From positions 1,468,001-1,532,000 of the forward strand of contig NZ_CP042593.1 of NCBI RefSeq assembly GCF_007995155.1: a stretch of DNA of 64,000 nucleotides. Direction: 5' to 3'. Source of the DNA: Cytobacillus dafuensis. Its GTDB lineage: Bacteria > Bacillota > Bacilli > Bacillales > Cytobacillaceae. The notes beneath the pieces were generated by a model. It saw only the letters and a program-made list of their open reading frames with translations. It made no database searches and had not been told where the DNA came from. Positions 1 to 43,192 of the stretch are shown piece after piece (position 1 is the stretch's first letter; each line of letters starts with the position of its first letter). The position numbers and the translations under genes were made by a program.

Positions 1-315
1 TTTACTCTATCCTCATTACCTATAGGAGAATCGATTAACCCTGAATCAGTTCGACCACATGATATTGAAATCCTTGGGAAAGTAGTAAATGGAGCATTAC
101 AGTTTCAGTTTGAATATAACAAATTACATTTTTCCAACAAGACAATGGAAAGATTGGCAAGGTTGTTCAAGTCACATCTGATTGATTTAATTCATCTATG
201 TACGATGAAGAAAGAAAGTGAATATACTCCTTCAGACTACGGTGATAATCATAATTTAACATTTGATGAACTAGAAAATTTACAAGACCTGATTGCAGCA
301 AAATTCAAATCCTAG
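1..315 (+). CDS. C-terminal end of an upstream NRPS (epimerization domain), 5' truncated by the window
   Basis: Frame 1 is open from the first base to a TAG at 313-315 and encodes the last 104 residues of a larger protein. The sequence matches the end of an NRPS epimerization domain: the segment NGALQFQFEYN, a helix around KTMERLARLFK, then EYTPSDYG and an acidic tail LTFDELENLQDLI. In Bacillus synthetases the TPSD region plus tail after an E domain acts as a donor communication (COM) region that docks onto the next protein. The upstream protein therefore delivers a chain ending in a D-residue. The stop lies 10 nt before the next start, so the genes are co-transcribed. The number and specificity of its modules lie outside the window. 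Confidence 0.9.
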   Translation, partial: FTLSSLPIGESINPESVRPHDIEILGKVVNGALQFQFEYNKLHFSNKTMERLARLFKSHLIDLIHLCTMKKESEYTPSDYGDNHNLTFDELENLQDLIAAKFKS

Positions 316-325
316 GAGGGTTATG

Positions 326-3300
326 ATGGCAGCGCCAGAAATCAAAAAGATCTACCCTTTGTCCCCGATGCAGGAGGGTATGCTATTTTACGCTTTGTAT
401 TCAAAGAAAAGCAAAGCTTACTTTGAGCAGGTTCGTCTAGAGATTAAGAAAAGTATTGATATTCGAGTGTTTGAGGAAAGCTTTAACCGCTTGATTGCCC
501 GCCATGATATTTTGCGTTCAATCTTTATTCACGAAGAGGTCCCCCGACCTCTTCAGGTTGTATTAAATCAAAGACAAGCCAACATTCACTATGAAAATAT
601 TCATCAACTAAATCCAGAAGAACAGGAGCAGGCTTTAACTAGTTATTTAGAGGAAGATAAAAAGCGATTATTTGAGCTGGATAAAGATTTACTAATGAGA
701 ATTGCAGTATTTGAAACAGGAACTTCTTCTTTTACTGTGATTTGGAGCTTTCATCATATCTTGCTGGATGGCTGGTCATTAGGACTTTTGTGGGAAGAAT
801 TCATGTCCATATATGAAGGAATGATGACTCGTGACCCGGCTAATTTACCACCCATACAGCCTTACAGTAATTATATTAACTGGTTGGAAAAACGTGATAG
901 GAAAGAATCTCTAAAATACTGGAAGAGCTATTTAAGCGGCTATGAGGTACAAGCCTCATTACCGAAGAAAACGGAGAGCCATGCTGATGATGATTACGAT
1001 TTAAAATGGATTGACATTCCCTTAGACGATAACCTGCTAGCCAAAATGGAGTCGCATGCAAGACAGCTAAAAGTTACACTTAATAGTTACATCCAAGTAG
1101 TATGGGGGATATTGTTAACAAAATACAACAAAACTAAGGATGTCGTTTTTGGTTCTGTATTATCAGGCAGACCATCAGAAATTCCGGGTGTTGAGCAAAT
1201 GATTGGTTTATTTATACAGACGGCACCTGTGAGAATTACAGTTTCCAAAGAATCTACCTTTGAAGAATTACTAGTAAAGGTACAAAAGGATGCTCTTGCT
1301 TCACAGGAGCACTCCTTTGTACCATTAGCAGATATTCAAGCTCAGAGTGACCTTGGAAAAGAGCTTCTCAATCATTTGGTGATGTTTGAAAATTATCCTC
1401 TTAATACTAACCTTCATGATGAAAGAGAGCATAAATTATCGGTAAGTAAGATGGACATCATTGAGCATACAAACTATGATTTTCAATTATTAGTCATTCC
1501 AGGAGAACATTATAATGTAAGACTCAGCTTTAATGCTACTGTTTATGAACAGGAATTGATGAAAAATATTTCAGTTCATTTCCATAATCTGTTGAAGCAA
1601 GTGACTGATTTCCCAGGGGTAGCAATCAATGATATTGAAATACTTACTAAGTCAGAAAAACAAAAAATCTTGGAATTTAGTACGGGCAACAATGTTAAAT
1701 TGAGAAAAGATATTATGATTCATGAAATTTTACAGGAGCAGGCTACACGTATTCCCGACAAGATCGCATTGAGGTTTGGAAATGAGTATCTTACATATAA
1801 GCAATTAAATGAAAAATCGAATCAATTGGCATCCGTACTGCAGGAAAACGGATTAAGAGCGGGAGAAACCGTAGGTATCAGACTTAATCGATCCCTTGAG
1901 ATGGTGATAGGGATATACGGAATTCTTAAAGCTGGTGGTGCCTATTTGCCGATAGATCCTTCCTTTCCAAACGAGCGGACTAGCTATTTGTTAGAAGATA
2001 CAAATACTCGCTATTTATTAACAAAGTCGGATATTAAGCCATTAAACTCGGGATTTGAAGGGACCACTCTACTTTTAGATAATCAAAACTTATATACGGG
2101 TGATGTTAAAAATATTGATTCCCGTAATTCGCCTGAGGATTTAATCTATGTTATTTACACTTCCGGGTCAACTGGAAAGCCAAAAGGAGTCATGGTCCAA
2201 CATAATTCAGTAATGAACCGTCTCTATTGGATGCAAAGAGAATATCCGATTACTGAGGATGACGTGATTTTACAAAAGACCCCTTTTACTTTTGATGTAT
2301 CTGTTTGGGAGTTATTTTGGTGGACAATTACCGGTTCGTCCCTATGTCTACTTGCTCCAGGGGGTGAAAAGGATCCTGAGGTTTTAGTGAATACCATATA
2401 TCAAAACGATGTGACAATCCTACATTTCGTTCCATCCATGCTTCAGGTATTTCTGAAGTATGTCGAGGACAAAAAAGAGACAGTTAAACAACTTTCCTTA
2501 GTGAAATATTTCTTTGCCAGCGGCGAAGCATTGTTATTGAATCAAGTTCACAAATTCAATGAGTTGCTTTTCACAGCAAACGATACAAAATTAATTAACT
2601 TATATGGACCGACTGAGGCAACCGTTGATGTTTCTTATTATGACTGTAGTACAAAGTGCATTGATGGTCGAGTTCCAATCGGTAAACCTATAGATAATGT
2701 TCAGCTTTATATTGTTGATGCATACAATCGACTAATGCCAGTAGGTGTTATTGGAGAGCTTTGTATTGCGGGTGATGGATTAGCAAGAGGGTATTTAAAT
2801 CGACATGATTTAACGAATGAAAAGTTTGTTAATAATCCATTTAACAAAGGTACAAAAATGTATCGTACAGGAGACTTGGCTCGATGGCTATCCAATGGCC
2901 AAATTGAGTATTTAGGCAGACTGGATCATCAAGTTAAGGTTAGGGGATACAGAATTGAGCTCCAAGAGATTGAAGCTTTTCTATTAGAACATGTAAAAGT
3001 AAGTGAAGCCGTTGTTACCCTTCGAAAAGATGTTTCAAATGAGGGTTATCTCTGTGCGTATGTTGTTCTAAAACGTGATTGGATAAAGGACTCTTCCGTC
3101 ATACAGAGTGAGCTTAAAGAGTTTCTTGGAACAAATGTACCAGGATACATGGTACCAGCACACATTGTAACTTTGTCTAAGATGCCTCTTACCCCTAATG
3201 GAAAATTAGATCGTAAATCACTTCCAGAACCAAAGGTATTATTAAACAATCGTTATGAAACTCCTCAAGCTGGTACAGAGCAACTGATAGCAGAGATTTG

Positions 3301-6300: not shown

Positions 6301-9300
6301 ACTACCTTTGACTCCTAATGGAAAGGTAGATAAAAGGGCATTGCCTGAACCAGAAGGTTTGATTCACTTGGGAGTCGAGTATGAAGCCCCTCAGGGAGAA
6401 GCTGAACAGCGGCTCGCACGTGTATGGAAGGAAGTGCTTAAAGCTGGAAAGGTTGGACGCCACGATCATTTCTTTGATCTTGGAGGAGATTCTATCAAGG
6501 GTATACAAGTGGCGGCTCGCCTTCACGAGAAAGGATGGAAGCTCCAATTAAAAGACCTTTTCCGATATCCGACTGTCGCCGAGCTAGCCCCTTATGTTCA
6601 ACAAGTGACAGGCGGGCAGATCAGTCAAGATGAGGTGACAGGAGAAGTCAGCTTATCGCCTATCCAGCGATGGTTTTTTGACCAGAGATTTGAAGAAGCC
6701 CATCATTGGAACCAAGCAGTTCTATTAGAAAGTCCGGAGGACTTAGATCCAGTGGCACTTCAATCCTCATTTGAGTCTCTCTTACACCATCATGATGCGT
6801 TGCGGATGACATATCGTGAAGAAGAAGGGCAAATTCTCCAATGGAACCGAATCACTACGGAAGAGAATCTGTATCATTGGGAAACCATCCAAATAAGTGA
6901 TATCGGTGATTCATTGGCTTCAAAGATAGAGAAAGAGTGTACACGTCTTCAGTCTAGGTTGAATCTCGCTGAAGGTCCACTTGTAGCTGGGGGATTATTT
7001 CAGACGAAAAAAAATGATTACTTTTTCGTTGCGATCCATCACCTTGCGGTCGACGGTGTATCTTGGCGCATCCTGTTAGAAGATCTTTGGGAAGGATATC
7101 AACAGGCTAAGAGGTCTGAACCGATCCAATTACCGATGAAAACGGACTCCTTCCAAAAGTGGTCAAGTGAGTTAACACAGTATGCACAAGGTCGAGCAAT
7201 TAAGAAGGAGCTAGCCTATTGGAAGGATGTCGTGAGTATTCCAGTCACTCCATTGCCAAAGGACGGAAATGCATCAGAAAATCGGATTGCGGATGAAGAT
7301 CAAGTGATCATTCAGTTCACAAGAGAGGATACAGCCAGATTAGTAAAAGAAGCAAACAGAGCATATCGGACGGAGATCAACGATCTCCTGTTAACTGCCC
7401 TTCATGGAGCCGTCCAAGAATGGACAGGTGATGAGAATCTAGTAGTGGATCTCGAAGGACATGGTCGAGAATTTATTGGTGAAGGCATCGATATTTCTCG
7501 TACAGTAGGGTGGTTTACGTCCATGTTCCCTGTCGCCCTAACATCTTCAGGTTCAATCGAGATAGGGGGAAAGCTACAGGCTATCAAAGAACAGCTGCGT
7601 CGGATTCCGAATAAAGGAATTGGCTATGGACTTTTAGCCTATCTAAGTTCTCTTGATGAGAAATTACAAACCTATCATCCAGAGATTGGGTTTAATTATC
7701 TAGGTGATTTTGGCGAAGGTTTACAAAATGACAAGCAAGCAATGACAATGTCGGACATATCAAGTGGTACTTCGCTTGGTATGGCTAATCATCGGGTTCA
7801 TACATTGGAAATCAATGGGATGACTCTAGAAGGAAGCCTTCAATTTAGGGTGAGCTTCAATCGTTTTGAATTCAAGAAGTCGACCATTGAAACGTTCGCA
7901 GAAGGGTTTAAAAGAAACCTCAATCAGCTTGTGGATTATTGTATCGCACAGGAACAGAGTGTGAAGACACCTTCAGACGTTGGGTTGTCCACTCTTCCAA
8001 TTGAGGTATGGAAGGATATTCAAAAGGTTCACTCAGCGGAATCGATTGAGGAAATTCGCCCTCTAAGCCCAATGCAGGAAGGGATATTATTTGAGAGTTT
8101 AATGAATCCGAATTCGCCTGCATACTTTGAACAATTGAGTTTTGTGGTTAATGGCAAACTCGAAAGGGAGTATTTATGGCAGAGTTTTCAGGACCTGGCG
8201 GTCCGACATGATATTCTCCGAACGGTATTCACAACTGAAGGGGAACATCCTCTACAGATTGTAGTAAAGGAACTACTGTTAGACGTGAAGGAGTTTTCAC
8301 TTTTAGATATCACACCGGATGAGAGGCAGGCAGCCATTGAGGCAAGGAAAGAAGCTGATAAAGAGAAAGGTTTTGATCTGAAAAAGGGTCCATTGATGCG
8401 TCTAACGGTACTTGAAACCGACAAAGAAGAATTTGTGTTGATTTGGAGCCATCACCATATCTTGATGGATGGATGGTGCTTAGGCATCCTTCTTCAAGAA
8501 TTCTTGACCCTCTATGCAGCGAGGAAAGAGGGGCGTCGAGCGGAGCTTGGCCCAGTGGAATCATATGGAAGATATATTGAATGGCTGACCAATCAGGACC
8601 GAGAAGAGGCAAAGGAATATTGGAGAGAGAAGGTAGCGGGGTATGTCGAGCAGGCTAGTCTTCCAAAAAAACAAATGACCTCTGCCTCGACTTACAAACA
8701 GGAAGAATTGAGTTATACCATGTCTACAACGTTATCAAAACAGGTTGAACAAGTAGCTCGGCATTTGAATAGTACGATAAGTACAGTTTTACAGGCTGCA
8801 TGGGGAGTGTTGTTATCGCGTTATTGTCAACAAGAGGATGTGATATTTGGAACAGTTGTTTCAGGAAGACCACCAGCAGTGAAGGGAATTGAAAAGACCG
8901 TAGGTCTATTTATTAACACAATCCCAGTTCGTTTCCAAGCTGCAAAAGATAAAACATTCGTGGACTTGGTGAAGGAAGGTCAGTCATGGGTAGTTTCTTC
9001 CCAAGAACATAGCTTTTTATCACTAGCTGAAATACAAGCAGAAAGTGAACTTGGACAAGGACTGATTGATCATATCTTTGTGGTAGAAAATTATCCTTTT
9101 GATGAAGAGGCGATGTCTGAAAAAGGAGCACGGGCGGACTTACGTATTAAAAATGAAGGCGTATTTGAACAAACAAGCTTTGATTTTAATGTTATTGTCG
9201 TTCCGGGAGAACAGATACATTACGCGTTTCGATATAATCCAGAAGTTTATGAGACAGCCTTAATAAATTATCTGAAGGGACATTTTGTGAGAGTAATAGA

Positions 9301-14944: not shown

Positions 14945-14968
14945 TGTTATCAGTGGAAGGGGATCATA

Positions 14969-26900: not shown

Positions 26901-29900
26901 ATAATGCGGAAATGTATAATGCGTTGGAAGTAAAAGGTATCAATCAACATTTTCAAGTATTACTGCAGAATTTAATAAAAAATTTAGAAAGAAAACTTTC
27001 TTCTATAGAAATGCTACCAACTTCGGAACGATCAACAATATTTGAATTTAACCCTATTCATCATTTTGGGAGGGAACGTACCGTTCATCAAGTGATTGAA
27101 GAACAGACAACTCTCACACCTATTGAAATTGCGGTTGTTTCAAAAGATAAGGAATTCACTTATCAAGAAATCAATGAACGGGCAAATCGAATGGCCCGTG
27201 CCCTTCGAAACATGAACGTAGAAAAAGGCGACCGAATCGGGGTTATGGTCAAACGTTCAGAGGATCTTATCATCTCTCTACTCGCAGTATTAAAAACGGG
27301 GGCTGCGTATGTACCCATTGATCCAGATTACCCTGAAGACCGTATTGCCTACATGGTTCACGACAGTAACACCAAATATATTATGACGGATGTTCTTGAA
27401 GGCCGTTTGTCATCATTTGACGAAAAGCTTTGCTTATTATCAGATTTAGCTGACCAAAATGAAGATGGTTCTAATCTGGAAGTAGATGTGCTGGCTACGG
27501 AGTTAGCGTATATCATCTATACGTCTGGTTCCACTGGAAAGCCAAAGGGAGTTATGGTAGAGCACCGTTCGGTGCACAATTTTATCGAAGGAATGTCAGA
27601 ATGTGTGAAAATGGCTTCTGGAGATAAAGTGTTGGCATTAACAACGGTATCGTTTGATATTTTTGTCACAGAAACCTTTCTCCCATTGGCAAAAGGCGCA
27701 TGTGTCATTATGGCAAGTGAAGAAGAACAACAGGACCCAGCCTTATTAAGCAGCTTAATAATGGACAACGAAGTTACAGCTATTCAGGCTACACCATCAA
27801 GAATAAAAGGTCTTTTGATGTATCCGGAGGGGGAAGAGTGCTTAGAGACAGTCAAGGTAATGATCGTGGGTGGAGAAGCCCTGCCATCTACTCTATTACA
27901 AAGTCTACAAGCTTACACAAATCTAACAGTCTACAATGCATATGGACCAACAGAAACCACCGTATATTCCAGTATCAGGAATGTAACGTCCGACCATGAG
28001 GTTACGATCGGTCAACCAATCCGTAATACACGTTGTTATATCGTAGGACCACATAATCGTCTTCAGCCAATTGGGGTTCTAGGAGAATTGTGTATTGCTG
28101 GAAGTGGGGTATCACGAGGATACCTAAACCGTCCAGAGCTTACAGCAAGTAAGTTTGTGGAAGACTCATTTGTGTCAGGAGAAATCATGTATAAAACGGG
28201 TGACCTGGCACGCTGGTTACCGGATGGCCAGATTGAATATGCAGGACGTATCGACCAACAAGTGAAAATGCGAGGATATAGGATAGAGCTCCAGGAAGTC
28301 GAGGCATGTATCGAAGAGTTTGATACGATACGTGAAGCGGCAGTAACGCTTCATACAGATTCTTTAGGGGACGCGTATCTCTGTGCTTATGTAGTGTGGA
28401 ACGATGTGAAAAAGGCCGCCTCTTTCAAAGAACTAAAAGTAGAGCTAGCAAGAAAATTACCCGGATATATGGTGCCAACTCACATGATAGAGCTTGAGCA
28501 GTTACCTTTAACAGCCAATGGGAAACTTGACCGAAAGGTTTTGCCAAAGCCTAAGAACCTTATAGATGTATATATATATCCAGAAACTGAAACGGAAAAG
28601 CAAATGGAAACCATTTGGCGCGAGGTATTGGGAATAAAGAATATTGGGGTTGATGATAACTTTTTTGCCCTAGGAGGTCACTCTTTAAAAGCGATTATGC
28701 TTGTTGGGAAGGTGAAGAAAACGCTAGGGAAGGAATTGTCTCTAAGTAAGATATTTGAGGTTCCAACCATTCGAGAATTATCGGAACATCTTGAAAAACA
28801 GACTAATAATGTATATCAAGAACTTAAGCTGGTGGCACCACGGAGTGCTTATCCACTATCATCGGCTCAGAGAAGATTGTTTGTGCTTAACCAGTTTCCT
28901 GAAATAGGAACAAGTTACAATATGCCAAGTGCTTGGACTATTCATGGTGGTATCGATGCAATGAAATTACAGAAGGCGCTTGAAAAAGTGACAGACAGGC
29001 ATGATACGTTACGAACTACGTTTGAAATGTTAGATGGTAAACCAGTTCAATTAATACATGAGTCGGTATGTATAAATATGGAATACTTTAATGCATCAAA
29101 AGAAGAACTGCCAAATGTAATAAATCGTTTTGTGCGTCCGTTTGATCTGGCACAAGGTCCATTGTTTCGAACAGCACTCATAACAATAAGTCATGACCAT
29201 CAGCTTTTACTATTTGATATGCATCATATTCTTTCTGATGGAACATCGGTCCAAATTCTAGCAAAAGAAGTAATGGCCTTTTATAACGGGGAAGGGCTTT
29301 CTAACAGCCGAATTCAATATAAAGACTATGCAGTCTGGCAGCAGGAACAAATAATTTCTAAGAATTATTTAACACATCAGGATTTTTGGATGGAAATATT
29401 TAAAGACAGTATGCCAAGTCTAGATATTATGACAGATTACCCAAGAACTGGTATTGCGAATTATGCTGGTTCTCAAATATCTTTCAAAATAAAACATTCG
29501 GTCATGGAGAAAATCAATGAATTAGCCAAAAAGACAGATAGCAGCTCGTATATGATTTTTTTAGCGGTGTATAATATTTTGCTTTCCAAATATAGCGGAC
29601 AGGAAGATATTGTAATCGGTTCTCCAGTTTCAGGGAGATCCCGTGAAGAAATTCAAAACATCATCGGTGTTTTTGTCAATATGTTGCCAATGCGAAATCA
29701 GCCTGAAGGTACAAAGCGTTTTCATACTTTTTTACAGGAAGTGAAAAAACAGACGCTCTTAGCGCTTGAACATCAAGACTATCCATTTGAAGATCTCGTA
29801 GATAAACTAGAAATTCCGAGGGATCCCAGCCGACACCCGTTGTTTGAGACCGTTTTGGCACATCAAAATGTAGATCAGTCAGGCTTGTCGTTCGATGATA

Positions 29901-32900
29901 CATTTGCTCATTCTTATGGCTTACCTCATATAACAGCAAAGTTTGATTTAACCGTAGAAATTATTGATGAACCAGAGGGTACCTTAATCCGCTGGGAATA
30001 CCGAACAACTCTTTTTAAAAGAGAGACGATTGAACGAATGGCAACTCATTTTCTTCATATACTTGAGGATGTTTTGGACAATCCTGATAAGCCACTGTCG
30101 GAAATTTCGCTATCAATAGATGAAAGAAAGAAGCAGAAGGCCTTTAATGATACGAAAGCTGAATATGATCTCTCTAAAACTATTATTGAAATTATTGAGA
30201 ATCAATCAGAACACAAACCTAATAATTTAGCAATTGTGTTTGGAGAAGAAAAATGGACGTATAAAAGGTTAAATCAAGAAGCCAATCAGCTTGCACGTCA
30301 TCTTCAGGCAAAAGGGCTTAGTTCCGAGCAGATAGTGGCTATTCTCGTGGAACCTTCTGTGGAGATGATTTTAGCTGTACTAGCAGTATTAAAGGCTGGT
30401 GGAGCATATGTGCCGATTGATCCAAATTATCCATTGGAAAGAATCCAATATATGATTGAGGACAGTCAAGCGGAGATCGTCATCACTCATCATCATTTAA
30501 CCGATAAGGTCAATGGGGAACGAGAAAAAGTAATTCTTGAGGAGCGAAGCTGGGAAAGGGAGTCTGTCGAAAAGCTTCCGATCCCCCGCGAGCCAAATGA
30601 ATTGGCCTATGTCATTTATACATCTGGAACAACTGGCCACCCCAAAGGGGTAATGATTGAGCATCGCTCACTCTCCAATTTATGTCAGTGGCATAACGAT
30701 CAGTTTGAATTGACGGAATTGGATCGAAGTACAAAAATTGCAGGATTTGGATTTGATGCATCTGTGTGGGAAATATTCCCTCCTCTACTAAAGGGAGCTG
30801 CACTCTATATTGTGCCAGAGGAATTGCGTACAGACATACACGAACTCAACAAGTTCTTTGAACAAAATCAAATTACTATCAGTTTCTTACCGACTCCACT
30901 GTGTGAACCGTTTTTAGCCTTGGACAACCAGTCTTTACGTGTATTGTTGACAGGTGGGGACAAGCTAAAAACGTATCAACCCGTTCGATTCCAGCTCATT
31001 AATAATTATGGGCCTACAGAAAATACGGTAGTTGCGACAAGTGGTGCGATTGATCATCAATCTACGAATCTACCGATTGGTAGACCGATTGCCAATACCC
31101 GAGTTTACATTCTAGGGCAGAATCATGAACTACAACCGATTGGAGTACCAGGAGAGCTTTGCATAGCTGGAGAGGGATTGGCACGAGGGTATTTAAACCA
31201 ACCTGAACTAACAGCGGAAAAGTTTATCGAACATCCGCATGAACCAGGTTCTCGACTATACCGATCAGGAGATCTAGCTCGTTGGCTGCCTGACGGCAGT
31301 ATCGAATATATAGGACGTATAGATGATCAGGTGAAAATTCGGGGACATCGGATTGAGCTTGGTGAAATCGAAGCCCAGCTTCTTCAGATGGAAGGAGTTG
31401 AAGATACTGTCGTTCTAGCAAGAAATGATGCGGATGGAACGGCGTATTTATGTGGCTATTTAGTGAGTCGAGAGGATGTAACGATCTCTGCGATTCGGAA
31501 CCATTTGTCTCGTACTCTTCCAGATTATATGATTCCTACTTCTTATGTTCTGTTAGATCAACTACCTTTGACTCCTAATGGAAAGGTAGATAAAAGGGCA
31601 TTGCCTGAACCAGAAGGTTTAATTCACTTGGGAGTCGAGTATGAAGCTCCTCAGAGAGAAGCTGAACTGCGGCTCGCACGTGTATGGAAGGAAGTGCTTA
31701 AAGCTGAAAAGGTTGGACGCCACGATCATTTCTTTGATCTTGGAGGAGATTCTATCAAGGGTATACAAGTGGCGGCTCGCCTTCATGAGAAAGGGTGGAA
31801 GCTGGAGTTAAAAGACCTTTTCCGATATCCGACGGTCGCCGAGCTAGCCCCTTATGTTTTACAAGTGACAGGCGGGAAGATTAGTCAAGAAGAAGTGACA
31901 GGAGAAGTCTGCTTATCACCTATCCAGCGATGGTTTTTTGACCAGAGATTTGAAGAAGCCCATCATTGGAACCAAGCAGTTCTATTAGAAAGTCCGGAGG
32001 ACTTGGATCCAGTGGCACTTCAATCCTCATTCGAGTCTCTTTTACACCATCATGATGCGTTACGGATGACTTATCGTGAAGAAGATGGGCGAATTCTCCA
32101 ATGGAATCGTTCCACTACGGAAGGGAATTTGTATCATTGGGAAACCATCCAAATAAGTGATATCGGTGATTCATTAGCTTCAAGGATAGAGGAAGAGTGT
32201 ACACGTCTTCAGACTAGGTTGAATCTCGCTGAAGGTCCACTTGTAATTGGGGGATTATTTCAGACGAAAAAAAGTGATTACTTTTTCGTTGCGATCCATC
32301 ACCTTGCGGTCGACGGTGTATCTTGGCGCATCCTGTTAGAAGATCTTTGGGAGGGATATCAACAGGCTAAGAGGTATGAACCCATCCAATTACCGATGAA
32401 AACGGACTCCTTCCAAAAGTGGTCAAGTGAGTTAACACAGTATGTACAAAGTCGCGCAATAAAGAAGGAGCTAGCCTATTGGAAGGATGTCATGAGTATT
32501 CCAGTCACTCCATTGCCAAAGGACGGAGATGCATCAGAAAATCGGATTGCGGATGAAGATCATGTGATCATTCAGTTCACAAGAGAGGAAACAGCCAGAT
32601 TAGTAAAAGAAGCAAACAGAGCATTTCGGACGGAGATCAACGATCTCCTGTTAACTGCCCTTCATGGCGCCGTCCAAGAATGGACAGGTGTTGAGAATTT
32701 AGTTGTGGATCTCGAAGGACATGGTCGAGAATTTATTGGTGAAGGCATCGATATTTCTCGTACAGTAGGGTGGTTTACGTCCATGTTCCCTGTCGCCCTA
32801 ACATCTTCAGGTTCAATTGAGGTGGGGGAAAAGCTGCAGGCTATCAAAGAACAGCTGCGTCGGATTCCGAATAAAGGAATTGGCTTTGGACTCTTAGCCT

Positions 32901-35900
32901 ATCTAAGTTCACTCCATGAGAAATTACAAACCTATCATCCAGAGATTGGGTTTAATTATCTAGGTGATTTTGGCGAAGGTTTACAAAATGACAAGCAAGC
33001 AATCACAATGTCGGACATATCAAGTGGTACTTCGCTTGGTATGGCTAATCATCGGGTTCATACATTGGAAATCAATGGGATGACTCTAGAAGGAAGTCTT
33101 CAATTTAGGGTGAGCTTCAATCGTTTTGAATTCAAGAAGTCGACCATTGAAACGTTCGCAGAAGGGTTTAAAAGAAACCTCAATCAGCTTGTGGATTACT
33201 GTATCGCACAGGAACAGAGTGTGAAGACACCTTCAGACGTTGGGTTGTCCACTCTTCCACTTGAGGTATGGAAGGATATTCAACAGGTTCACTCAGCGGA
33301 ATCGATTGAGGAAATTCGCCCGCTAAGCCCAATGCAGGAAGGGATATTATTTGAAAGTCTAATGAATCCGAATTTGCCTGCATACTTTGAACAATTGAGT
33401 TTTGTGGTTAATGGCAAGCTCGAAAAGGAGTATTTATGGCAGAGTTTTCAGGACCTGGCGGTCCGACATGATATTCTCCGAACGGTATTCACAACTGAAG
33501 GGGAACATCCTCTACAGATTGTAGTAAAGGAACTACTGTTAGACGTGAAGGAGTTTTCACTTTTAGATATCACACCGGATGAGAGGCAGGCAGCCATTGA
33601 GGCAAAGAAAGAAGCCGATAAAGAGAAAGGTTTTGATCTGAAAAAGGGTCCATTGATGCGTCTAACGGTACTTGAAACCGACAAAGAAGAATTTGTGTTG
33701 ATTTGGAGCCATCACCATATCTTGATGGATGGGTGGTGCTTAGGCATCCTTCTTCAAGAATTCTTGACCCTCTATGCAGCGAGGAAAGAGGGGCGTCGAG
33801 CGGAGCTTGGCCCAGTGGAATCATATGGAAGATACATCGAATGGCTGACCAATCAAGACCGAGAAGTGGCGAAGGAATATTGGAGAGAGAAGGTAGCAGG
33901 GTATGTCGAGCAGGCTAGTCTGCCAAAAAAACAAATGACCGTTGCCTCGACTTACAAACAGGAAGAAATGAGCTATACCATGTCTACAACGTTAACAAAA
34001 CGGGTTGAACAAGTAGCTCGGCATTTGAACAGTACGATAAGTACAGTTTTACAGGCTGCATGGGGAGTGTTGTTATCGCGTTATAGTCAACAAGAGGATG
34101 TGATATTTGGAACAGTTGTTTCAGGAAGACCACCAGCAGTGAAGGGAATTGAAAAGACCGTAGGTCTGTTTATTAACACAATCCCAGTTCGTTTCCAGGC
34201 TGCAAAAGATAAAACGTTTATGGACTTGGTGAAGGAAGGTCAGTCATGGGCAGTTTCATCCCAAGAGCATAGCTTTTTATCACTGGCTGAAATTCAAGCA
34301 GAAAGTAAACTGGGGTCAGGACTGCTTGATCACCTTTTTGTAGTAGAAAATTATCCATTTGACAAAGATATTATGGATAAAAATGAAAAAATAGTCGGAT
34401 TAGGTATTAAGGCCGAAGGAGTATTTGAACAAACAAACTATGACTTCAATGTCATAGTAAATCCTGGCGATCAGCTGAGCTTCACTTACCGCTTTAATTC
34501 GGAGATATACGATGAATTTTTGGTAAGACGAATAAGCAGAAGTATGGAAAAAGTCTTAGAAAGTATTTGTGTTGGACCTACACAATCTCTTTTTGAAATT
34601 GAGATTTTATCCGAAGAAGAAAAGATGGTGGTAAGAGAATTTAATAATACGAATATGAAATTCCCGCTGGACAAAACACTTGATCAATTGATACAAGATC
34701 AGGCGATGCGTAGTCCATTCGAAACTGCAATAGTATGTGGGGATAGACGTATCACTTATCAGGATCTTTCCGAACAAGCAAATGCAGTTGCAACCCGTCT
34801 CATCCAAGAAGGTGTCAAACCTGGTGATCATGTTGGTATTATAACCGGTAGGAAAGCGGAAACAGTGGCAGGATTACTTGGAATCTTAAAGGCTGGGGCT
34901 GCCTATGTCCCAATGGAGCCAGATTATCCAAAAGAGAGAGTTTACTATATTCAAAAACAATCTCATATCAAAAATATAATAATGGATGAAGAAGCACTCC
35001 ATCTAGAAAAAAAACTACTTCAAGGGACAAAAATTATTGGTTTGGAAGAAGCAATCAAAAACAAAGGTTCTCAAGTAAAGATTTCCAAAGATCCACAAAG
35101 TTTGGCTTACATCATCTACACATCTGGATCGACGGGAAGGCCGAAAGGGGTCATGATTGAACATAAATCAATTGTGAACTTGATTCATTGGGTGAACCAG
35201 ACGTACATGGTGGGAGCAAACGATCGATTATTGTGGATGACATCAATGTGTTTTGACCTTTCTGTATATGACATATTTGGAATACTTGCTTCGGGAGGAA
35301 CTGTAGTAATCGCCCAAAAAGAAGACGTTCAGGACCCAGTTCGTTTACGGAAAATGATTATAAAAGAAAAAATTACATTCTGGGATTCAGTTCCAACAAC
35401 GCTACATCACTTTTTACGAGGGTTGGAGGAAGGTCAAGAAGCATACTGGCAGGAAAATTTGCGACTCATTTTCTTAAGTGGAGATTGGATTCCGGTGAAT
35501 CTAAAGAAACGATCAGAGGTATACTTTCCAAATGCAAAGATGATTGGATTAGGAGGGGCAACAGAGGGAACAATTTGGTCCAACTATTACCCCGTTGAAA
35601 CAGTCTACGAAGGGCAAAAAAGTATTCCATACGGAAAACCAATTGGAAATAATACCTTTTATATCCTGGACGCTGATCAATGTCCTGTACCGCAGGGGGT
35701 AACAGGAGAACTTTACATTGGTGGAATTGGAGTAGCCCGAGGTTACATTGGGGATTTGGAAAAAACATCCGTTTCTTTTATGAAAGACCCATTCCGTAAT
35801 GAAGAAAATGCTACGATGTATCGCACAGGTGATCTTGGAAGACTGCTTCCTGATGGAAACATGGAGTTCCTTGGTCGAATGGATCATCAAGTGAAGGTAA

Positions 35901-37111
35901 GAGGTTATCGAATTGAGCTAGGAGAGGTGGAAGCGCTACTTACAGCACATCCTAGAGTAAAGGAATCCGTGGTAACAGTGATAAAGGACGGAGATATCAA
36001 TAGTGGAGTTGCCGCTTATTTAGTAGGCGATAAAACTATAACTGATAATGAGCTTCGCCAGTATTTATTTACTTATCTACCAAAATATATGCTTCCAGCC
36101 CACTATATATGGTTGGAAGAGATGCCGCTTAGTAGCAATGGGAAAATTGATAGAAAATCACTTCCGAACCCAAAAGAACATCTTTTTGAAAGAGTTTTCG
36201 AATCACCCGATACAGTAACCGCTAAAGCTTTAGCAGAAATTTGGACAAGCCTTCTTGGAATTGAAAATGTGAGCATGAATGATAGCTTTTTTGATGTAGG
36301 TGGTTATTCACTCAAGGCGACTGTTTTGGTTGCGAAAATATATAAAAAATGGGGGATAGAAGTTCCATTAGAGTGGGTATTTAGATACTCTACACTTCGA
36401 GAACTTTCAGAAAAAATTGATGTGCTTAAAACTAATATTTTGATGGAAGATAATCCTGTGACGAGCTTGAGTGAAGGGACCTTTCCTATTTTCTGTTTTC
36501 CACCGGTAGCTGGATTTGGATTTGAATTTAAAGGGCTTGCGGATAATCTCCCAGATCATACTGTATATGCCTTTGATTTTATTGAAGGAGAAGATCGGTT
36601 TGAACGGTATGTCTCTATCATAAAATCCATACAACCAGAAGGAGTGTATATGCTATTGGGTTATTCAGCAGGTGGAAACCTTGCATTTGAAGTAGCAAAG
36701 GCATTAGAAAAAAGCGGTGAGTTTGTATCAAAACTAATTATTTTGGATGCAAATCGCAAAACAAATATTGAGCATAGTACCGATAAACAATTAGATGCGG
36801 AAATAGAGGCACAATTACAAGCTGCTGATAGTAACTATCACGATTGGCTAGCAGTTCCAGCTCTAAGACAAAAGGTGCAGCGCCGTATTAAGAAGTATAG
36901 AAGATTCTTAGAGGAAACCGTGAACGATGGATTTATTAATGCCGATATTATCGTCATTTGCTCAGAAGATACGAATGGCATGTCGTGGGTTTCATCAACT
37001 AAAGGTAAACACAAAGTAATAAGAGGATACGGGAATCATACAGAAATGCTTTCCACACCTTTTGTTGGAAAACATGCGGAAATTTTACGAAGTATCTATA
37101 CATTGGCTTAA
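14969..37111 (+). CDS. NrpsB: six-module NRPS (Thr, ?, Leu-E, ?, Leu-E, Cys-like) with terminal thioesterase
   Basis: 7380 aa, ATG preceded by GGAAGGGG at 14955-14962. Module 1: C (HH144, DGWGLG type), A (A3 core 613, DFWNIGMVHK = Thr), T (Ser1005). Module 2: C (HH1188, motif ends DE instead of DG), A (1653, DITQIGAVYK, unassigned), T (Ser2041). Module 3: C (HH2221), A (2686, DAWFLGNVVK = Leu), T (GGDS, Ser3064), E (HH3246). Module 4: C (HH3718, DGWCLG), A (4184, DITQIGAVYK), T (Ser4572). Module 5: C (HH4752), A (5217, Leu code), T (Ser5595), E (HH5777). Module 6: C (HH6249, DGWCLG), A (6717, DLYDFSLIWK, Cys-like), T (GGYS, Ser7114), TE (GYSAGG, Ser7233; LILDANRK; GYGNHTEML). Modules 2-3 and 4-5 are a tandem duplication. 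The first C domain has the form that accepts a D-residue donor, but the preceding gene ends in T-TE, so its partner is probably the upstream E-terminated NRPS. Confidence 0.95.
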   Translation: MKEKINIQNVYELTPLQEGMVFNHIIDNESKAYLEQVEFKLEGNLNIPYFETSFQRLVNRHDAFRTIIRYSKLKKPLQVVLKERKAAFQFEDLSAYDEKKIDRIIEEYKEKDLARGFILDKDSLIRVKVFKQTETSYAVIVSFHHIVLDGWGLGVALNEWLEIYAGLLNNKPIDLPNSFSYSDYIVWLKKQNFEQASLHWERALEGYDQKAGFIPVFKRKADGKKFLHSSFIETFNESLTESLSALAKSYNVTFNAVLRSIWGLLLQKYNNTDDVVFGTVVSGRPPQLSGIEQAIGLFINTVPVRIKGEAGQTFKDLLLQVHEDIQEENKFHYYPLYEVLSKSELKNDLLDHVIAFENYPLDKQLLLAGQYTGLSISEMKIFEQTNYDFHMNIVPGEKTTLNIIYNSEIYNRQYIEQIFRHFQKLAIDIVQNPNKDLFKYEVLTEDEKSEQLKNNINSSYPTDKTIHELFELQVSKNPDKKAAVFGSEYLTYDELNSRASTIAEYLRKKGVRRQESIVLIANKSLETLVAMLAILKSGCAYVPVDPASPVERIQYILQDCSARFLISPSDWASPSDFTGQVIKIDNGIYESTTSVSSEVYYRGEANSLAYIIYTSGTTGKPKGVMVEHKNVTSLILNEKMPYQFSDKDIWTIFHSFSFDFSVWEMYGALLYGGTCVIVPKDIAQNPKKFLSLLQSENVTVLNQTPSAFSHLIEEVSFNGVTNLNLRYVIFGGEALKPAMLYPWKLKFPNIHLINMYGITETTVHVTYKEITKHEIEENTSNIGKPLPSLNAYIMNEHQQLVPTGTIGELYIGGEGVTRGYINKEALTKERFMLNPYNHSEIIYRSGDIVRKLNNGEMEYLGRIDHQVKVRGHRIELGEIENQLLVHPNIKEAVVVSFKDHTDMTYLCAYVVSDRELSSTVLRTYLSSFLPDYMIPAHFVFLASLPLTGNGKIDRKALPKPEVSSNFAYVEPQTSLEGELAKIWKEVLGVERVGIHDHFFELGGHSLRATQLVNMIHKNLDIELPLKMVFEKPTIQLMCQEIEKLNPSEKRVFHEIQKVEEQEYYPASSAQKRLLILNQLENIGNNYNITGAVQLEGPVDPKRLEQAIQQVINRHEALRTSFETTEEGFIQRVHPHVPFSLEQWEEKEPKASQSVNRFSRPFNLSNAPLLRAGLVKTGPECHVLILDMHHSISDEASLKTMLKEISLLYKGEVLPPLRLQYKDVAAWQTERMKTKEFLEAETFWLKEMSGELPVLDISRRERPKFQSFEGDRVDFHVPTSLAQQLSELATKTGTTLYMVLLSAYQLLLSRYSGQEDIIVGSPVASRPHADLQNMVGMFVNTIPMRNSLSEEESIRSLLQKVRERALLAFEHQSYPFEQLVEKVSITRDLSRNPVFDHMFIMHDAGTAKLELENVDITSYSLEDRSAKVDLTLEVSENEMGLSAWFQYSTALFSKDEMKIMSSHFVNILEEIVKDTDQPLSSIEMISEAERYTLLHDLNPKTVAGVERTVHQRFEEQVTHTPAQIAVISSGREYTYQEINERANRMARALQNMNVEKGDRIGVMVKRSEDLIIALLAVLKTGAAYVPIDPDYPEDRIAYMVHDSNTKYIMTDVREGRLSSFDEKLCLLSDLADQSEDGSNLEVDVLATELAYIIYTSGSTGKPKGVMVEHRSVHNFIEGMSECVKMASGDKVLALTTVSFDIFVTETFLPLAKGACVIMASEEEQQDPALLSSLIMDNEVTTIQATPSRIKGLLMYPEGEECLETVKVMIVGGEALPPTLLQSLQAYTNLTVYNAYGPTETTVYSSIRNVTSDHEVTIGQPIRNTRCYIVGPHNRFQPIGVLGELCIAGSGVSRGYLNRPELTASKFVEDPFVSGEIMYKTGDLARWLPDGQIEYAGRIDQQVKMRGYRIELQEVEACIEEFDTIREAAVTLHTDSLGDAYLCAYVVWNDVKKAASFKELKVELARKLPGYMVPTHMIELEQLPLTANGKLDRKVLPKPKNLIDVYIYPETETEKQMETIWREVLGIKNIGVDDNFFALGGHSLKATMLIAKVKRVLKKELSLSTIFENPTIREFSKRLDNQTSNVYMELEPVGRRDTYPLSSSQRRLFVLSQFPEIGTSYNMPSAWTIHGYIDVMKLQKALEKVTDRHEILRTTFGMADGNPIQLIHESVNVRVECVDASKDVLSDIIKSFIRPFDLTQGPLFRTALITISHDHQLLLFDMHHILSDGTSIQILAEEIMAFYNGNELSNNRIQYKDYTVWQQEQLNSDFYLKQQEFWMNVFKDNIPVLELVPNQQRKVVPNYIGSQLSCKIQPSLMRKVNEIAKKTESSIYMIFLAVYNILLSKYSGQEDIVIGSPVAGRSREEIQNTIGVFVNMLPMRNQPEGTKRFDTFLQEVKKQTLSALEHQDYPFEDLIDKLGILRDPSRHPLFDTVLVHQNIDQSVLSFGNISANSYELRHGTAKFDITVEILDVQEDTLMRWEYRSSHFGREMIERMASHFLHLLEEVINCPERHLADLTLPSHERTMQLNFNDTNAEFELDRTVVEMFEEQSKKKPGNTAVVYRETKWSYERLNQEANQLARHLQAKGLSSEQIVAILVEPSVEMILAVLAVLKAGGAYVPIDPNYPSERIQYMIEDSQAEIVITHHHLTDKVNGEREKVILEERSWERESVENLPTSCEPNGLAYVIYTSGTTGHPKGVMIEHRSLSNLCQWHNDQFELTEWDRSTKIAGFGFDASVWEILPPLLKGAALYIVPEELRTDIHELNKFFEQNQITISFLPTPLCEPFLALDNQSLRVLLTGGDKLKTYQPVRFRLINNYGPTENTVVATSGAIDHQSTNLPIGRPIANTQVYILGKNHELQPIGVPGELCIAGEGLARGYLNQPELTAEKFIEHPHEAGSRLYRSGDLARWLPDGSIEYLGRIDDQVKIRGHRIELGEIEAQLLQMEGVEDAVVLAHKDSDGMAYLCGYLVSREDVTISAIRNHLSRTLPDYMIPASYVLLDQLPLTPNGKVDKRALPEPKGLIHLGVGYEAPQGEAEQRLALVWKEVLKAGKVGRHDHFFDLGGDSIKGIQVAARLHEKGWKLELKDLFRYPTVAELAPYVLQVTGGQISQEEVTGEVCLSPIQRWFFDQRFEEAHHWNQAVLLESPEDLDPVALQSSFESLLHHHDALRMTYREEDGRILQWNRSTTEGNLYHWETIQISDIGDSLASRIEEECTRLQTRLNLAEGPLVIGGLFQTKKSDYFFVAIHHLAVDGVSWRILLEDLWEGYQQAKRYEPIQLPMKTDSFQKWSSELTQYVQSRAIKKELAYWKDVMSIPVTPLPKDGDASENRIADEDHVIIQFTREETARLVKEANRAFRTEINDLLLTALHGAVQEWTGVENLVVDLEGHGREFIGEGIDISRTVGWFTSMFPVALTSSGSIEVGEKLQAIKEQLRRIPNKGIGFGLLAYLSSLHEKLQTYHPEIGFNYLGDFGEGLQNDKQAITMSDISSGTSLGMANHRVHTLEMNGMTLEGSLQFRVSFNRFEFKKSTIETFAEGFKRNLNQLVDFCIAQEQSVKTPSDVGLSTLPLEVWKDIQQVHSAESIEEIRPLSPMQEGILFESLMNPNSPAYFEQLSFVVNGKLEREYLWQSFQDLAVRHDILRTVFTTEGEHPLQIVVKELPLDVKEFSLLDITPDERQAAIEARKEADKEAGFDLKKGPLMRLTVLETDKEEFVLIWSHHHILMDGWCLGILLQEFLTLYAARKEGRRAELGPVESYGRYIEWLTNQDREVAKEYWREKVAGYVEQASLPKKQMTVASTYKQEEMSYTLSTTLTKQVEQVARHLNSTISTVLQAAWGVLLSRYSQQEDVIFGTVVSGRPPAVKGIEKTVGLFINTIPVRFQAAKDKTFVDLVKEGQSWAVSSQEHSFLSLAEIQAESKLGQGLIDHLFIVENYPFDDEAMSEIGEQAGLRIKNEGVFEQTSYDFNAIVVPGKQIQTLFRYNAEMYNALEVKGINQHFQVLLQNLIKNLERKLSSIEMLPTSERSTIFEFNPIHHFGRERTVHQVIEEQTTLTPIEIAVVSKDKEFTYQEINERANRMARALRNMNVEKGDRIGVMVKRSEDLIISLLAVLKTGAAYVPIDPDYPEDRIAYMVHDSNTKYIMTDVLEGRLSSFDEKLCLLSDLADQNEDGSNLEVDVLATELAYIIYTSGSTGKPKGVMVEHRSVHNFIEGMSECVKMASGDKVLALTTVSFDIFVTETFLPLAKGACVIMASEEEQQDPALLSSLIMDNEVTAIQATPSRIKGLLMYPEGEECLETVKVMIVGGEALPSTLLQSLQAYTNLTVYNAYGPTETTVYSSIRNVTSDHEVTIGQPIRNTRCYIVGPHNRLQPIGVLGELCIAGSGVSRGYLNRPELTASKFVEDSFVSGEIMYKTGDLARWLPDGQIEYAGRIDQQVKMRGYRIELQEVEACIEEFDTIREAAVTLHTDSLGDAYLCAYVVWNDVKKAASFKELKVELARKLPGYMVPTHMIELEQLPLTANGKLDRKVLPKPKNLIDVYIYPETETEKQMETIWREVLGIKNIGVDDNFFALGGHSLKAIMLVGKVKKTLGKELSLSKIFEVPTIRELSEHLEKQTNNVYQELKLVAPRSAYPLSSAQRRLFVLNQFPEIGTSYNMPSAWTIHGGIDAMKLQKALEKVTDRHDTLRTTFEMLDGKPVQLIHESVCINMEYFNASKEELPNVINRFVRPFDLAQGPLFRTALITISHDHQLLLFDMHHILSDGTSVQILAKEVMAFYNGEGLSNSRIQYKDYAVWQQEQIISKNYLTHQDFWMEIFKDSMPSLDIMTDYPRTGIANYAGSQISFKIKHSVMEKINELAKKTDSSSYMIFLAVYNILLSKYSGQEDIVIGSPVSGRSREEIQNIIGVFVNMLPMRNQPEGTKRFHTFLQEVKKQTLLALEHQDYPFEDLVDKLEIPRDPSRHPLFETVLAHQNVDQSGLSFDDTFAHSYGLPHITAKFDLTVEIIDEPEGTLIRWEYRTTLFKRETIERMATHFLHILEDVLDNPDKPLSEISLSIDERKKQKAFNDTKAEYDLSKTIIEIIENQSEHKPNNLAIVFGEEKWTYKRLNQEANQLARHLQAKGLSSEQIVAILVEPSVEMILAVLAVLKAGGAYVPIDPNYPLERIQYMIEDSQAEIVITHHHLTDKVNGEREKVILEERSWERESVEKLPIPREPNELAYVIYTSGTTGHPKGVMIEHRSLSNLCQWHNDQFELTELDRSTKIAGFGFDASVWEIFPPLLKGAALYIVPEELRTDIHELNKFFEQNQITISFLPTPLCEPFLALDNQSLRVLLTGGDKLKTYQPVRFQLINNYGPTENTVVATSGAIDHQSTNLPIGRPIANTRVYILGQNHELQPIGVPGELCIAGEGLARGYLNQPELTAEKFIEHPHEPGSRLYRSGDLARWLPDGSIEYIGRIDDQVKIRGHRIELGEIEAQLLQMEGVEDTVVLARNDADGTAYLCGYLVSREDVTISAIRNHLSRTLPDYMIPTSYVLLDQLPLTPNGKVDKRALPEPEGLIHLGVEYEAPQREAELRLARVWKEVLKAEKVGRHDHFFDLGGDSIKGIQVAARLHEKGWKLELKDLFRYPTVAELAPYVLQVTGGKISQEEVTGEVCLSPIQRWFFDQRFEEAHHWNQAVLLESPEDLDPVALQSSFESLLHHHDALRMTYREEDGRILQWNRSTTEGNLYHWETIQISDIGDSLASRIEEECTRLQTRLNLAEGPLVIGGLFQTKKSDYFFVAIHHLAVDGVSWRILLEDLWEGYQQAKRYEPIQLPMKTDSFQKWSSELTQYVQSRAIKKELAYWKDVMSIPVTPLPKDGDASENRIADEDHVIIQFTREETARLVKEANRAFRTEINDLLLTALHGAVQEWTGVENLVVDLEGHGREFIGEGIDISRTVGWFTSMFPVALTSSGSIEVGEKLQAIKEQLRRIPNKGIGFGLLAYLSSLHEKLQTYHPEIGFNYLGDFGEGLQNDKQAITMSDISSGTSLGMANHRVHTLEINGMTLEGSLQFRVSFNRFEFKKSTIETFAEGFKRNLNQLVDYCIAQEQSVKTPSDVGLSTLPLEVWKDIQQVHSAESIEEIRPLSPMQEGILFESLMNPNLPAYFEQLSFVVNGKLEKEYLWQSFQDLAVRHDILRTVFTTEGEHPLQIVVKELLLDVKEFSLLDITPDERQAAIEAKKEADKEKGFDLKKGPLMRLTVLETDKEEFVLIWSHHHILMDGWCLGILLQEFLTLYAARKEGRRAELGPVESYGRYIEWLTNQDREVAKEYWREKVAGYVEQASLPKKQMTVASTYKQEEMSYTMSTTLTKRVEQVARHLNSTISTVLQAAWGVLLSRYSQQEDVIFGTVVSGRPPAVKGIEKTVGLFINTIPVRFQAAKDKTFMDLVKEGQSWAVSSQEHSFLSLAEIQAESKLGSGLLDHLFVVENYPFDKDIMDKNEKIVGLGIKAEGVFEQTNYDFNVIVNPGDQLSFTYRFNSEIYDEFLVRRISRSMEKVLESICVGPTQSLFEIEILSEEEKMVVREFNNTNMKFPLDKTLDQLIQDQAMRSPFETAIVCGDRRITYQDLSEQANAVATRLIQEGVKPGDHVGIITGRKAETVAGLLGILKAGAAYVPMEPDYPKERVYYIQKQSHIKNIIMDEEALHLEKKLLQGTKIIGLEEAIKNKGSQVKISKDPQSLAYIIYTSGSTGRPKGVMIEHKSIVNLIHWVNQTYMVGANDRLLWMTSMCFDLSVYDIFGILASGGTVVIAQKEDVQDPVRLRKMIIKEKITFWDSVPTTLHHFLRGLEEGQEAYWQENLRLIFLSGDWIPVNLKKRSEVYFPNAKMIGLGGATEGTIWSNYYPVETVYEGQKSIPYGKPIGNNTFYILDADQCPVPQGVTGELYIGGIGVARGYIGDLEKTSVSFMKDPFRNEENATMYRTGDLGRLLPDGNMEFLGRMDHQVKVRGYRIELGEVEALLTAHPRVKESVVTVIKDGDINSGVAAYLVGDKTITDNELRQYLFTYLPKYMLPAHYIWLEEMPLSSNGKIDRKSLPNPKEHLFERVFESPDTVTAKALAEIWTSLLGIENVSMNDSFFDVGGYSLKATVLVAKIYKKWGIEVPLEWVFRYSTLRELSEKIDVLKTNILMEDNPVTSLSEGTFPIFCFPPVAGFGFEFKGLADNLPDHTVYAFDFIEGEDRFERYVSIIKSIQPEGVYMLLGYSAGGNLAFEVAKALEKSGEFVSKLIILDANRKTNIEHSTDKQLDAEIEAQLQAADSNYHDWLAVPALRQKVQRRIKKYRRFLEETVNDGFINADIIVICSEDTNGMSWVSSTKGKHKVIRGYGNHTEMLSTPFVGKHAEILRSIYTLA
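19550..26750 (+). repeat. Copy 1 of two-module tandem duplication inside NrpsB (A2-T2-C3-A3-T3-E-C4)
   Basis: Seven equivalent landmarks are each exactly 7593 nt upstream of the same landmark in copy 2: A2 core 19925, T2 serine 21089, C3 histidine 21629, A3 core 23024, T3 serine 24158, E histidine 24704, C4 histidine 26117. Similarity is very high in the A2-T2 part and from A3 to C4, and clearly lower in C3. Borders are approximate and read by eye. Confidence 0.9.
27143..34343 (+). repeat. Copy 2 of two-module tandem duplication inside NrpsB (A4-T4-C5-A5-T5-E-C6)
   Basis: It is offset from copy 1 by exactly 7593 nt (2531 codons) at every landmark checked, with no net insertion or deletion: 27518, 28682, 29222, 30617, 31751, 32297, 33710. 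Similarity fades near 34310, where the two C domains diverge after the VENYPFD segment. Confidence 0.9.
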
Positions 37112-38431: not shown

Positions 38432-38538
38432 CAGCTTCACACTCCTTTTATAGAAAATTCACATAATACAACAATAACAAATAGTTACTTTAATGGAAAG
38501 AAATGAAACAGAAATCTTTTTTTTCAGGGGGATATTAG

Positions 38539-39204
38539 ATGTTTAAAGAGATTAAGTGTGATTTGAAGGCTGTCATTGAGAGAGACCCTGCTGCAAATAG
38601 TATCATGGAAGTTATTTTCTTTTATCCGGGGTTTCAAGCTTTAATGTTTCATAGGGTTACTCACTGGTTATATTCAAAAAAACTTGTCTTTTTATCTAAG
38701 GGTATTGCATATTTCAGTCGGTTCTTAACTGGTGTTGAAATACATCCTGCTGCGAAATTAGGTAAAGGTATATTTATCGATCATGGTATGGGAGTAGTAA
38801 TTGGTGAGACAGCAGAGGTAGGAGATAACGTCACAATTTATCATGGGGCTACTTTAGGAGGAACAGGTAAAGATGTGGGGAAACGACACCCAACTGTTGG
38901 AAGTAATGTCACTATATCCTCAGGAGCAAAAGTGCTTGGACCAATAAAAATAGGTGATAATTCTAAAATAGGTGCAAGTTCAGTCGTATTAAAGGATATT
39001 CCAGAAAATTCAACAGTAGTGGGCATACCTGGGGAAATAGTAAAAAGAGATAACGGGGAATATAATCGGATCACTACATATGAACAGGAAAAAGAGATGG
39101 CGTTACATTGGCAAATGAAGTTGGTAGAAATACAAAATACTAAACAATTTATTAACAGTGTTCAAGAGAGAGTGGGGAATAACCCTACAATAAAAAAAAA
39201 GTAA
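38539..39204 (+). CDS. cysE: Serine O-acetyltransferase (CysE family)
   Basis: 221 aa, ATG after AGGGGGA at about 38526. The N-terminal helical part contains ERDPAA. The rest is a left-handed beta-helix acyltransferase with hexapeptide repeats ([45 protein letters not shown]) and the end segment VVGIPGEIV. CysE makes O-acetyl-L-serine from serine and acetyl-CoA, the direct precursor of cysteine (and, in some siderophore and antibiotic pathways, of 2,3-diaminopropionate). Inside an NRPS cluster whose two last modules have Cys-like pockets, a dedicated copy would fit supply of that residue; this link is inference. It is the first gene of a run of tightly packed genes up to 44080. Confidence 0.9.
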
Positions 39205-43169: not shown

Positions 43170-43192
43170 GCTATTAAAAGGAGATAAAACAA

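Follow-up and report, generated by a model that had tools for sequence, protein, structure and literature searches.

Two consecutive nonribosomal peptide synthetases (NRPSs) of Cytobacillus dafuensis, NrpsA and NrpsB, both open with a condensation (C) domain of the type that follows an epimerization (E) domain and both end with a thioesterase (TE) domain, raising the question of which donor protein feeds each of them. The window, that is, the whole stretch of DNA analysed, covers 64,000 nucleotides (G000:C1:1468001-1532000), and its features are collected in Table 1. The preliminary description, made from the window alone, had proposed a forked assembly line in which the protein ending at position 315, named N2 here, feeds both synthetases. 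The sequences lend good support to a fork with two acceptors that end in TE, but N2 is probably wrong as the donor of NrpsB. It is likely that the cluster encodes a bifurcated lipopeptide NRPS with the fork after the loading protein N1, in which N1-N2-NrpsA would make an 8-residue product and N1-NrpsB a 7-residue product.

Table 1. Features of the window (positions counted from its first nucleotide)
Feature	Position	Strand	Description
N2 C-terminal end	1..315	+	end of E domain and COM donor tail; G is the second residue after TPSD
NrpsA open reading frame	293..14944	+	C-A-T / C-A-T-E / C-A-T / C-A-T-TE; intact single frame
NrpsA first C, post-E class	344..1672	+	K-class COM acceptor hand (EIKKIYP-LSPMQEG; fingers FIHEEVPR)
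NrpsA internal E domain	6641..7981	+	domain search, ML tree
NrpsA thioesterase	14291..14644	+	Pfam-matched part (Thioesterase)
NrpsB	14969..37111	+	C-A-T / C-A-T / C-A-T-E / C-A-T / C-A-T-E / C-A-T-TE; intact single frame
NrpsB first C, post-E class	14990..16318	+	N2-type D/N-class COM acceptor hand (INIQNVYE-LTPLQEG; fingers RYSKLKKP)
NrpsB block shared with N2 by copying or conversion	16792..21112	+	BLASTN 90.6% over block; 98.8% nt over inner 2850 nt
NrpsB direct duplication, copy 1, two modules	19481..26916	+	92.8% nt over 7.4 kb
NrpsB first E domain	24308..25648	+	domain search, ML tree
NrpsB direct duplication, copy 2	27074..34509	+	92.8% nt over 7.4 kb vs copy 1
NrpsB second E domain	31901..33241	+	domain search, ML tree
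NrpsB thioesterase	36485..37054	+	Pfam Thioesterase
Type II thioesterase	37667..38440	-	domain annotation
Serine acetyltransferase (CysE-like)	38539..39204	+	fits Cys-like A domains
FAD oxidoreductase	39257..40729	+	Pfam Amino_oxidase; phytoene-desaturase-like by eye
4'-phosphopantetheinyl transferase	44201..44899	+	

Organization of the NRPS cluster

N2 (L021:7549-18315, 3588 aa) has the domain order CAT-CAT-CATE, starts at G000:C1:1457549, 10.45 kb left of the window, and closes with an E domain and a COM tail (TPSDYGDNHNLTFDELENLQDLIAAKFKS), in agreement with the preliminary description. Reading of the DNA left of the window revealed a separate E-terminated partner, which the preliminary description had itself named as a finding that would refute its reading. 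This protein, N1 (L021:973-7542, 2189 aa), ends with a COM tail 10.5 kb left of the window and was overlooked earlier because it lies outside the window, to its left. N1 has the order AMP-binding (FAAL-like)-ACP-C-A-T-E, the Pfam AMP-binding and PP-binding domains preceding its first C domain as in a FAAL-initiated lipopeptide synthetase, and from this position we infer that the ligase is a FAAL and not another acyl ligase. The C3 motif of the first C domain of N1 reads HHxxxDR, not HHxxxDG, in all three species that carry the cluster (the window strain, G032 and G021). The genes for N1, N2, NrpsA and NrpsB all run in one direction, no more than 24 bp apart, and the real start of NrpsA is probably an ATG at about 323/326. 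All 19 C and E domains found in the single-contig 4.9 Mb genome fall in these four proteins, and a donor outside the cluster was rejected because no further C or E domain was found in the genome. The genome yielded just two E-ended proteins, N1 and N2, against three post-E acceptors (N2, NrpsA and NrpsB), and N1 must be the start of the line.

NrpsA and NrpsB both end in T-TE with a GYSAGG site and a Pfam Thioesterase match, and so each arm has its own release domain. The two clean classes of C domains described earlier are recovered in a maximum-likelihood (ML) tree, in which the E domains (5; 100/100), the post-E C domains (6; 100/100) and the other C domains (8, namely seven post-T C domains and that of N1 behind the ACP; 93/89) form separate groups, and none of 200 shuffles separates them as cleanly. 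The first C domains of NrpsA and NrpsB fall in the post-E group, as had been claimed; that of NrpsB is 33-38% identical to other post-E C domains, 19-24% to post-T C domains and 26% to the C domain of N1. The DGWxLG motif is present in all five post-E C domains of NrpsA and NrpsB, and the first C domain of N2, also post-E, has DGWSVA rather than DGWxLG.

Docking classes of donors and acceptors

COM docking is marked by TPSD behind the donor E domain and L(T/S)P(M/L)QEG at the acceptor N-terminus (PMC11546977, in part), and both motifs are found on the donors and acceptors of the cluster. In Bacilli trans junctions, the second donor residue after TPSD is linked with the fourth acceptor residue before the L(T/S)P motif. 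In 70 junctions from other Bacilli, several of which look like those that we take to belong to surfactin, gramicidin and tyrocidine, non-G donors meet a D/N acceptor in 41 of 42 cases and G donors in 2 of 28. Among the first 50 pairs, left from 55 rows of 116 loci (L072-L187) after removal of the window's own two and three repeats, the 17 G donors meet K (11), R (2), S (1), L (1), D (1) and N (1), and the 33 non-G donors meet D (24) or N (9), that is, D/N in 33 of 33. Thinning to 36 pairs leaves D/N acceptors for 2 of 10 G donors and for 26 of 26 others (Fisher 1.5e-6). The junctions were collected with an E-tail alignment from loci picked by hand with likely gene ends preferred, and the hand columns and the junction rule were fixed after the alignments had been viewed; the only later test is a set of 20 pairs from 67 loci (L188-L254; search of the order of G811), which come from the same class of bacteria and include the N1-N2 junction of G1027 itself, and in which D/N follows 0 of 11 G donors and 8 of 9 non-G donors, the one exception being K. 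The TycC1 acceptor changes its choice of partner after a single point mutation (PMC5112269, in part), and therefore a one-residue switch has precedent. A literature search, with the original Hahn and Stachelhaus papers outside its coverage, found no paper stating the junction rule, which may be partly known already. If true, the two-class COM rule predicts partners in Bacilli from two residues and would offer an inexpensive and testable way of predicting subunit order in Bacilli clusters, which product-prediction tools need.

In all three species, the tail of N1 is non-G and that of N2 is G, and the acceptor residue is N in N2 and NrpsB and K in NrpsA. Consistently, the N-terminus of NrpsB (KINIQNVYELTPLQEG) resembles that of N2 (KIGIQNIYPLTPLQEG), not that of NrpsA (EIKKIYPLSPMQEG), and the orthologues are alike in all three species: N2 and NrpsB share K(I/F)x(I/V)(Q/K)N(I/V)Yx-LTPLQEG with basic finger residues, and NrpsA has PxIxKIYP-LSPMQEG with FIHE(E/G)V fingers. 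In the hand columns, which were mapped roughly from the helix-hand description in PMC12402864 (in part) after the alignment had been seen, the NrpsB-N2 identity exceeds the NrpsB-NrpsA identity by 0.222, compared with -0.003 in the rest of the domain, and only 1 of 452 circularly shifted masks reaches this difference. Over 200 aa, overall first-C identity (NrpsB-N2 40-43%, NrpsB-NrpsA 38-40%) is of no use as a docking signal and was dropped, and docking columns and trees were therefore used. A tree of first and cis post-E C domains separates 6 N2 and 5 NrpsB-like rows from 6 NrpsA and 2 cis rows (100/99), and with five rows added from G974 and G964, four of them NrpsB-like, the split becomes 15 versus 9 (99/99), one row being long-branched.

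Docking was also scored from similarity vectors (mean leave-one-out AUC 0.87, n 36; 0.50 after shuffling). One finger segment of the input was cut at the wrong place by its pattern, and the score helps for N1 and hardly for N2. N1 scores lowest on NrpsA in all three species, but when its scores on N2 and NrpsB are set among those on 36 foreign acceptors, they rank no higher than the 33rd-86th percentile. N2 scores highest on itself in two of the three species, and N2-NrpsA and N2-NrpsB are weakly apart (0.14/0.12, 0.10/-0.01 and 0.11/-0.06). This weak separation, together with the 2 exceptions among 28 G-donor junctions, would allow N1 to feed N2 and NrpsB and N2 also to feed NrpsB at a low rate, giving three products, but such crosstalk draws no positive sign from the junction rule or the phylogeny and is improbable. 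Slightly less probable still is the original reading, in which N2 alone donates to NrpsA and NrpsB alike, with 8- and 10-residue products on a common acyl-tetrapeptide. N2 does have the E domain and the COM tail of a donor, both first C domains are post-E, and COM domains are promiscuous in engineering (PMC9113145, in part); however, G donors like N2 rarely meet a D/N acceptor, the hand and first C domain of NrpsB are of the N2 type, and N1 is available as another donor, of the class that matches. At the level of sequence, the docking classes, the resemblance of the hands and the trees of first C domains all indicate that the one donor N1 is compatible with two acceptors; they pair N1 with N2 and NrpsB and pair N2 with NrpsA, so that the predicted products change.

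Predicted products

In the line forked at the loader, N1 would load a fatty acid and build an acyl-D-Cys-like intermediate on its carrier, and its COM tail would be read by N2 and NrpsB, two acceptors of one docking class. N2 would extend the chain and hand it over via the other docking class to NrpsA, which would release the 8-residue lipopeptide acyl-D-Cys-Thr-?-D-Val-Ser-D-Thr-Leu-Cys. NrpsB would take the same N1 intermediate and alone complete the 7-mer acyl-D-Cys-Thr-?-D-Leu-?-D-Leu-Cys, the two being predicted to be co-produced. After this re-pairing of donors, a shared acyl-D-Cys-like head replaces the shared four-residue part with two tails of the preliminary description.

The A-domain codes, partly read by eye (N2 module 1, NrpsA module 2 and rows with position 278 or the code blank), are DLYDFSLVW in N1 and in the last module of NrpsA and DLYDFSLIW in the last module of NrpsB, resembling what we take to be the Cys code DLYNLSLIWK. 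Those of N2 are DFWNIGMVH, presumably Thr, DITQIGAVW, and DAFWIGATF, presumably Val-like. NrpsA reads Ser-like, Thr (E), Leu-like and Cys-like, and NrpsB reads Thr, DITQIGAVY, Leu-like (E), DITQIGAVY, Leu-like (E) and Cys-like, the meanings of these codes being our assumption; these readings agree with those given earlier. The NrpsB-line product of G032 would be acyl-D-Cys-Thr-?-D-Leu-Cys.

Duplication and homogenization in NrpsB

NrpsB has six modules in the window and four in its G032 orthologue (4849 aa), the extra ones having come through the 7.4-kb direct duplication, a repeat that is absent from the orthologue. Over the 2850-nt stretch shared with N2, NrpsB and N2 of the same genome are 95.3% identical in G032, close to the value in the window, whereas N2-N2 and NrpsB-NrpsB identities between species are 69%. 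In the first 1300 nt, identity between NrpsB and the N2 or NrpsA of the same genome is 51-53%, compared with 70-74% between orthologues, and the TE domains are 45-54% identical between NrpsA and NrpsB and 59-64% within one kind. The middles are thus nearer within a genome than between orthologues and the ends the reverse, which shows that the ends for docking and release remain distinct and that the middle is homogenized independently within each species, probably by gene conversion. NrpsB would be a compact parallel copy of N2 plus NrpsA, its middle kept like both by gene conversion and its acceptor C and TE domains remaining distinct from theirs.

Between species, the regions of NrpsB's own differ at 15-21% of second and 49-52% of third codon positions, compared with 12-16% and 48-51% in N1, N2 and NrpsA, showing that these parts of NrpsB are under constraint. 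The sequence mosaic of N2 and NrpsA might also be expected of a decaying duplicate without a product, but the 7380-aa frame of NrpsB is open, its acceptor C and TE domains keep a purifying codon-position pattern (G000 vs G032), and an orthologue is found in all three congeneric genomes with the cluster (in G021 as the first 924 aa at a contig edge), leaving this explanation very improbable. A linear arrangement N1-N2-NrpsA-NrpsB that yields one long product is suggested by gene order and direction but is hardly conceivable. The linear reading with NrpsB last was rejected because NrpsA ends with an intact TE, has no donor tail and, as already pointed out in the preliminary description, lacks a terminal E domain, and NrpsB, opening with a post-E C domain, does not continue it.

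Related clusters

A loader domain of at least 67% identity to that of N1 is found in 3 of 36 genus genomes (two others at 35-37%), and matches at E 1e-100 are found in 4 of 193 family genomes, the fourth at 43%. All four proteins are present in the three congeneric species; G032 keeps the order N1-N2-NrpsA-NrpsB, and G021 shows it piecewise on three contigs. At 10 of 33 loci of named loader relatives, the loader is 2.1-2.2 kaa long and closes with a TPSD/SPSD tail (one orientation, 10-kb flanks). In another genus member, G034, four E-domain-end matches lie in NRPS-sized frames (G034:C1:1256844-1283725), and no loader match is found at E 1e-60.

In another family, that of G1027, the loader is matched at E 1e-140 in 20 of 104 genomes, three of which (G1027, G974 and G964) were examined. 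N1-N2-NrpsA(TE) with the same junction classes as in the window cluster is found in G1027, in G974 and on contig C34 of G964. In G1027, a draft genome with broken frames, NrpsA(TE) is followed by two lines that open with KIEIQNVYP-LTPLQEG; both lie behind a TE-ended gene and both are followed by a TE, the second line being split in two proteins. Upstream of N1, and in the same orientation, G974 and G964 C34 each carry a pair of extra genes starting with (S/N)xIEIQN(V/I)YG- or QLEIQNIYG-LTPLQEG, and these N1-type acceptor genes led to the rejection of G974 and G964 as unforked relatives; behind the NrpsA genes, 3.9 kb (G974) and 4.7 kb (G964) were covered. Of the six extra IQN(V/I)Y-LTPLQEG genes, four (both of those in G1027, a single one in G974 and a single one in G964) come after a gene with a TE-like end and the other two after a CysE-like end; none is directly preceded by an E-ended gene, and N1 of this family carries the tail class that matches all six. 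Since these acceptors have no fitting donor directly upstream, forking at the loader appears to recur in this family, although another donor for the extra G974 and G964 genes is possible among the incompletely read genes upstream of N1. The other loader line of G964 (contig C3) shows no extra N1-type acceptor in the 40 kb covered.

In the tree, NrpsB of the Cytobacillus group adjoins its own N2 (89/85) and the NrpsB-like rows of the G1027 family form a separate clade (100/99), suggesting that the fork may have arisen twice. With somewhat less confidence than in the fork itself, we favour a hub-and-spoke factory, in which one loader serves two (Cytobacillus group) or three (G1027 family) synthetases that share a COM class, the middles being homogenized by gene conversion and the docking and release ends kept apart, so that lines can be added or lengthened (NrpsB from four to six modules) with the parent product untouched. 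The two- and three-way relatives, the module insertion and the homogenization in each species would make assembly-line evolution visible in mid-course.

G1027 also encodes a 5767-aa E-ended NRPS (C19:135018-152321) with a G-class tail (TPSDLGYSKLGIAELDELLEEIAVGLDDIE), the helix end of which resembles that of N1, and no acceptor is found within 7.7 kb behind it.

Neighbouring genes

Upstream of N1 lie genes for a short-chain reductase, a FabA-like dehydratase and two ketosynthases, of which the second was called from its sequence and its match to Ketoacyl-synt_C; this set would fit a dedicated acyl chain. A protein with a C-terminal end like that of the window FAD oxidoreductase adjoins the G1027 ketosynthases. 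In the window, positions 40726-44080 hold an FtsE/FtsX-like pair and then two proteins without a Pfam match at E 0.001, in a gene order like that of G032, and positions 44940-48047 hold an AcrB-type RND transporter, a possible exporter, adjoining this Gram-positive NRPS cluster. A 136-aa precursor lies beside an HTH-TPR regulator (L020:12709-13119 and 13131-14474, minus strand; G000:C1:1444709-1446474) and has a signal-like start and tandem HEIFPD (8) and EIALN (3) units; the same place holds three HE(I/L)FP(E/D) units in G032 and two in G021. The precursor looks like a conserved multi-copy peptide pheromone, and it may control the cluster.

Comparison with known systems

No report of this NRPS cluster was found in a literature search of Cytobacillus lipopeptide NRPS papers at the level of titles. 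In the vatiamide pathway, one upstream PKS part reportedly feeds several NRPS branches, and that pathway is said to be a cyanobacterial PKS/NRPS hybrid, unlike the window cluster. Natural bifurcated NRPSs have already been described: in the wollamide/desotamide (wol) cluster of Streptomyces, one upstream part likewise feeds two alternative downstream NRPSs within one cluster, duplication and intragenomic recombination are involved as well, and gene conversion is named as a blurring force (PMC9205934, in part). In wol, however, it is the final gene, encoding two modules, that has been duplicated, and a PAX-type domain served as the model for docking (PMC9205934, in part), whereas here the proposed fork follows the loader, one arm consists of two proteins and the other of a single fused protein that differs in length, and the docking domains are of the COM type. 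In the universal COM system of surfactin (Chiocchini 2006), one donor class serves two acceptors to give a lipohepta- and a lipotetrapeptide, but that system is engineered and its short product comes from a skipped subunit (PMC5112269, in part), whereas the present parallel synthetase is a natural sequence. The clusters of G1027, G974 and G964 C34, also with a FAAL, differ from the present one in having two extra N1-type acceptor genes instead of one. The proposed loader-level fork would be a variant beyond the known bifurcated NRPSs and a natural case of what engineers aim at with COM swaps, in which docking alone divides one starter between parallel lines.
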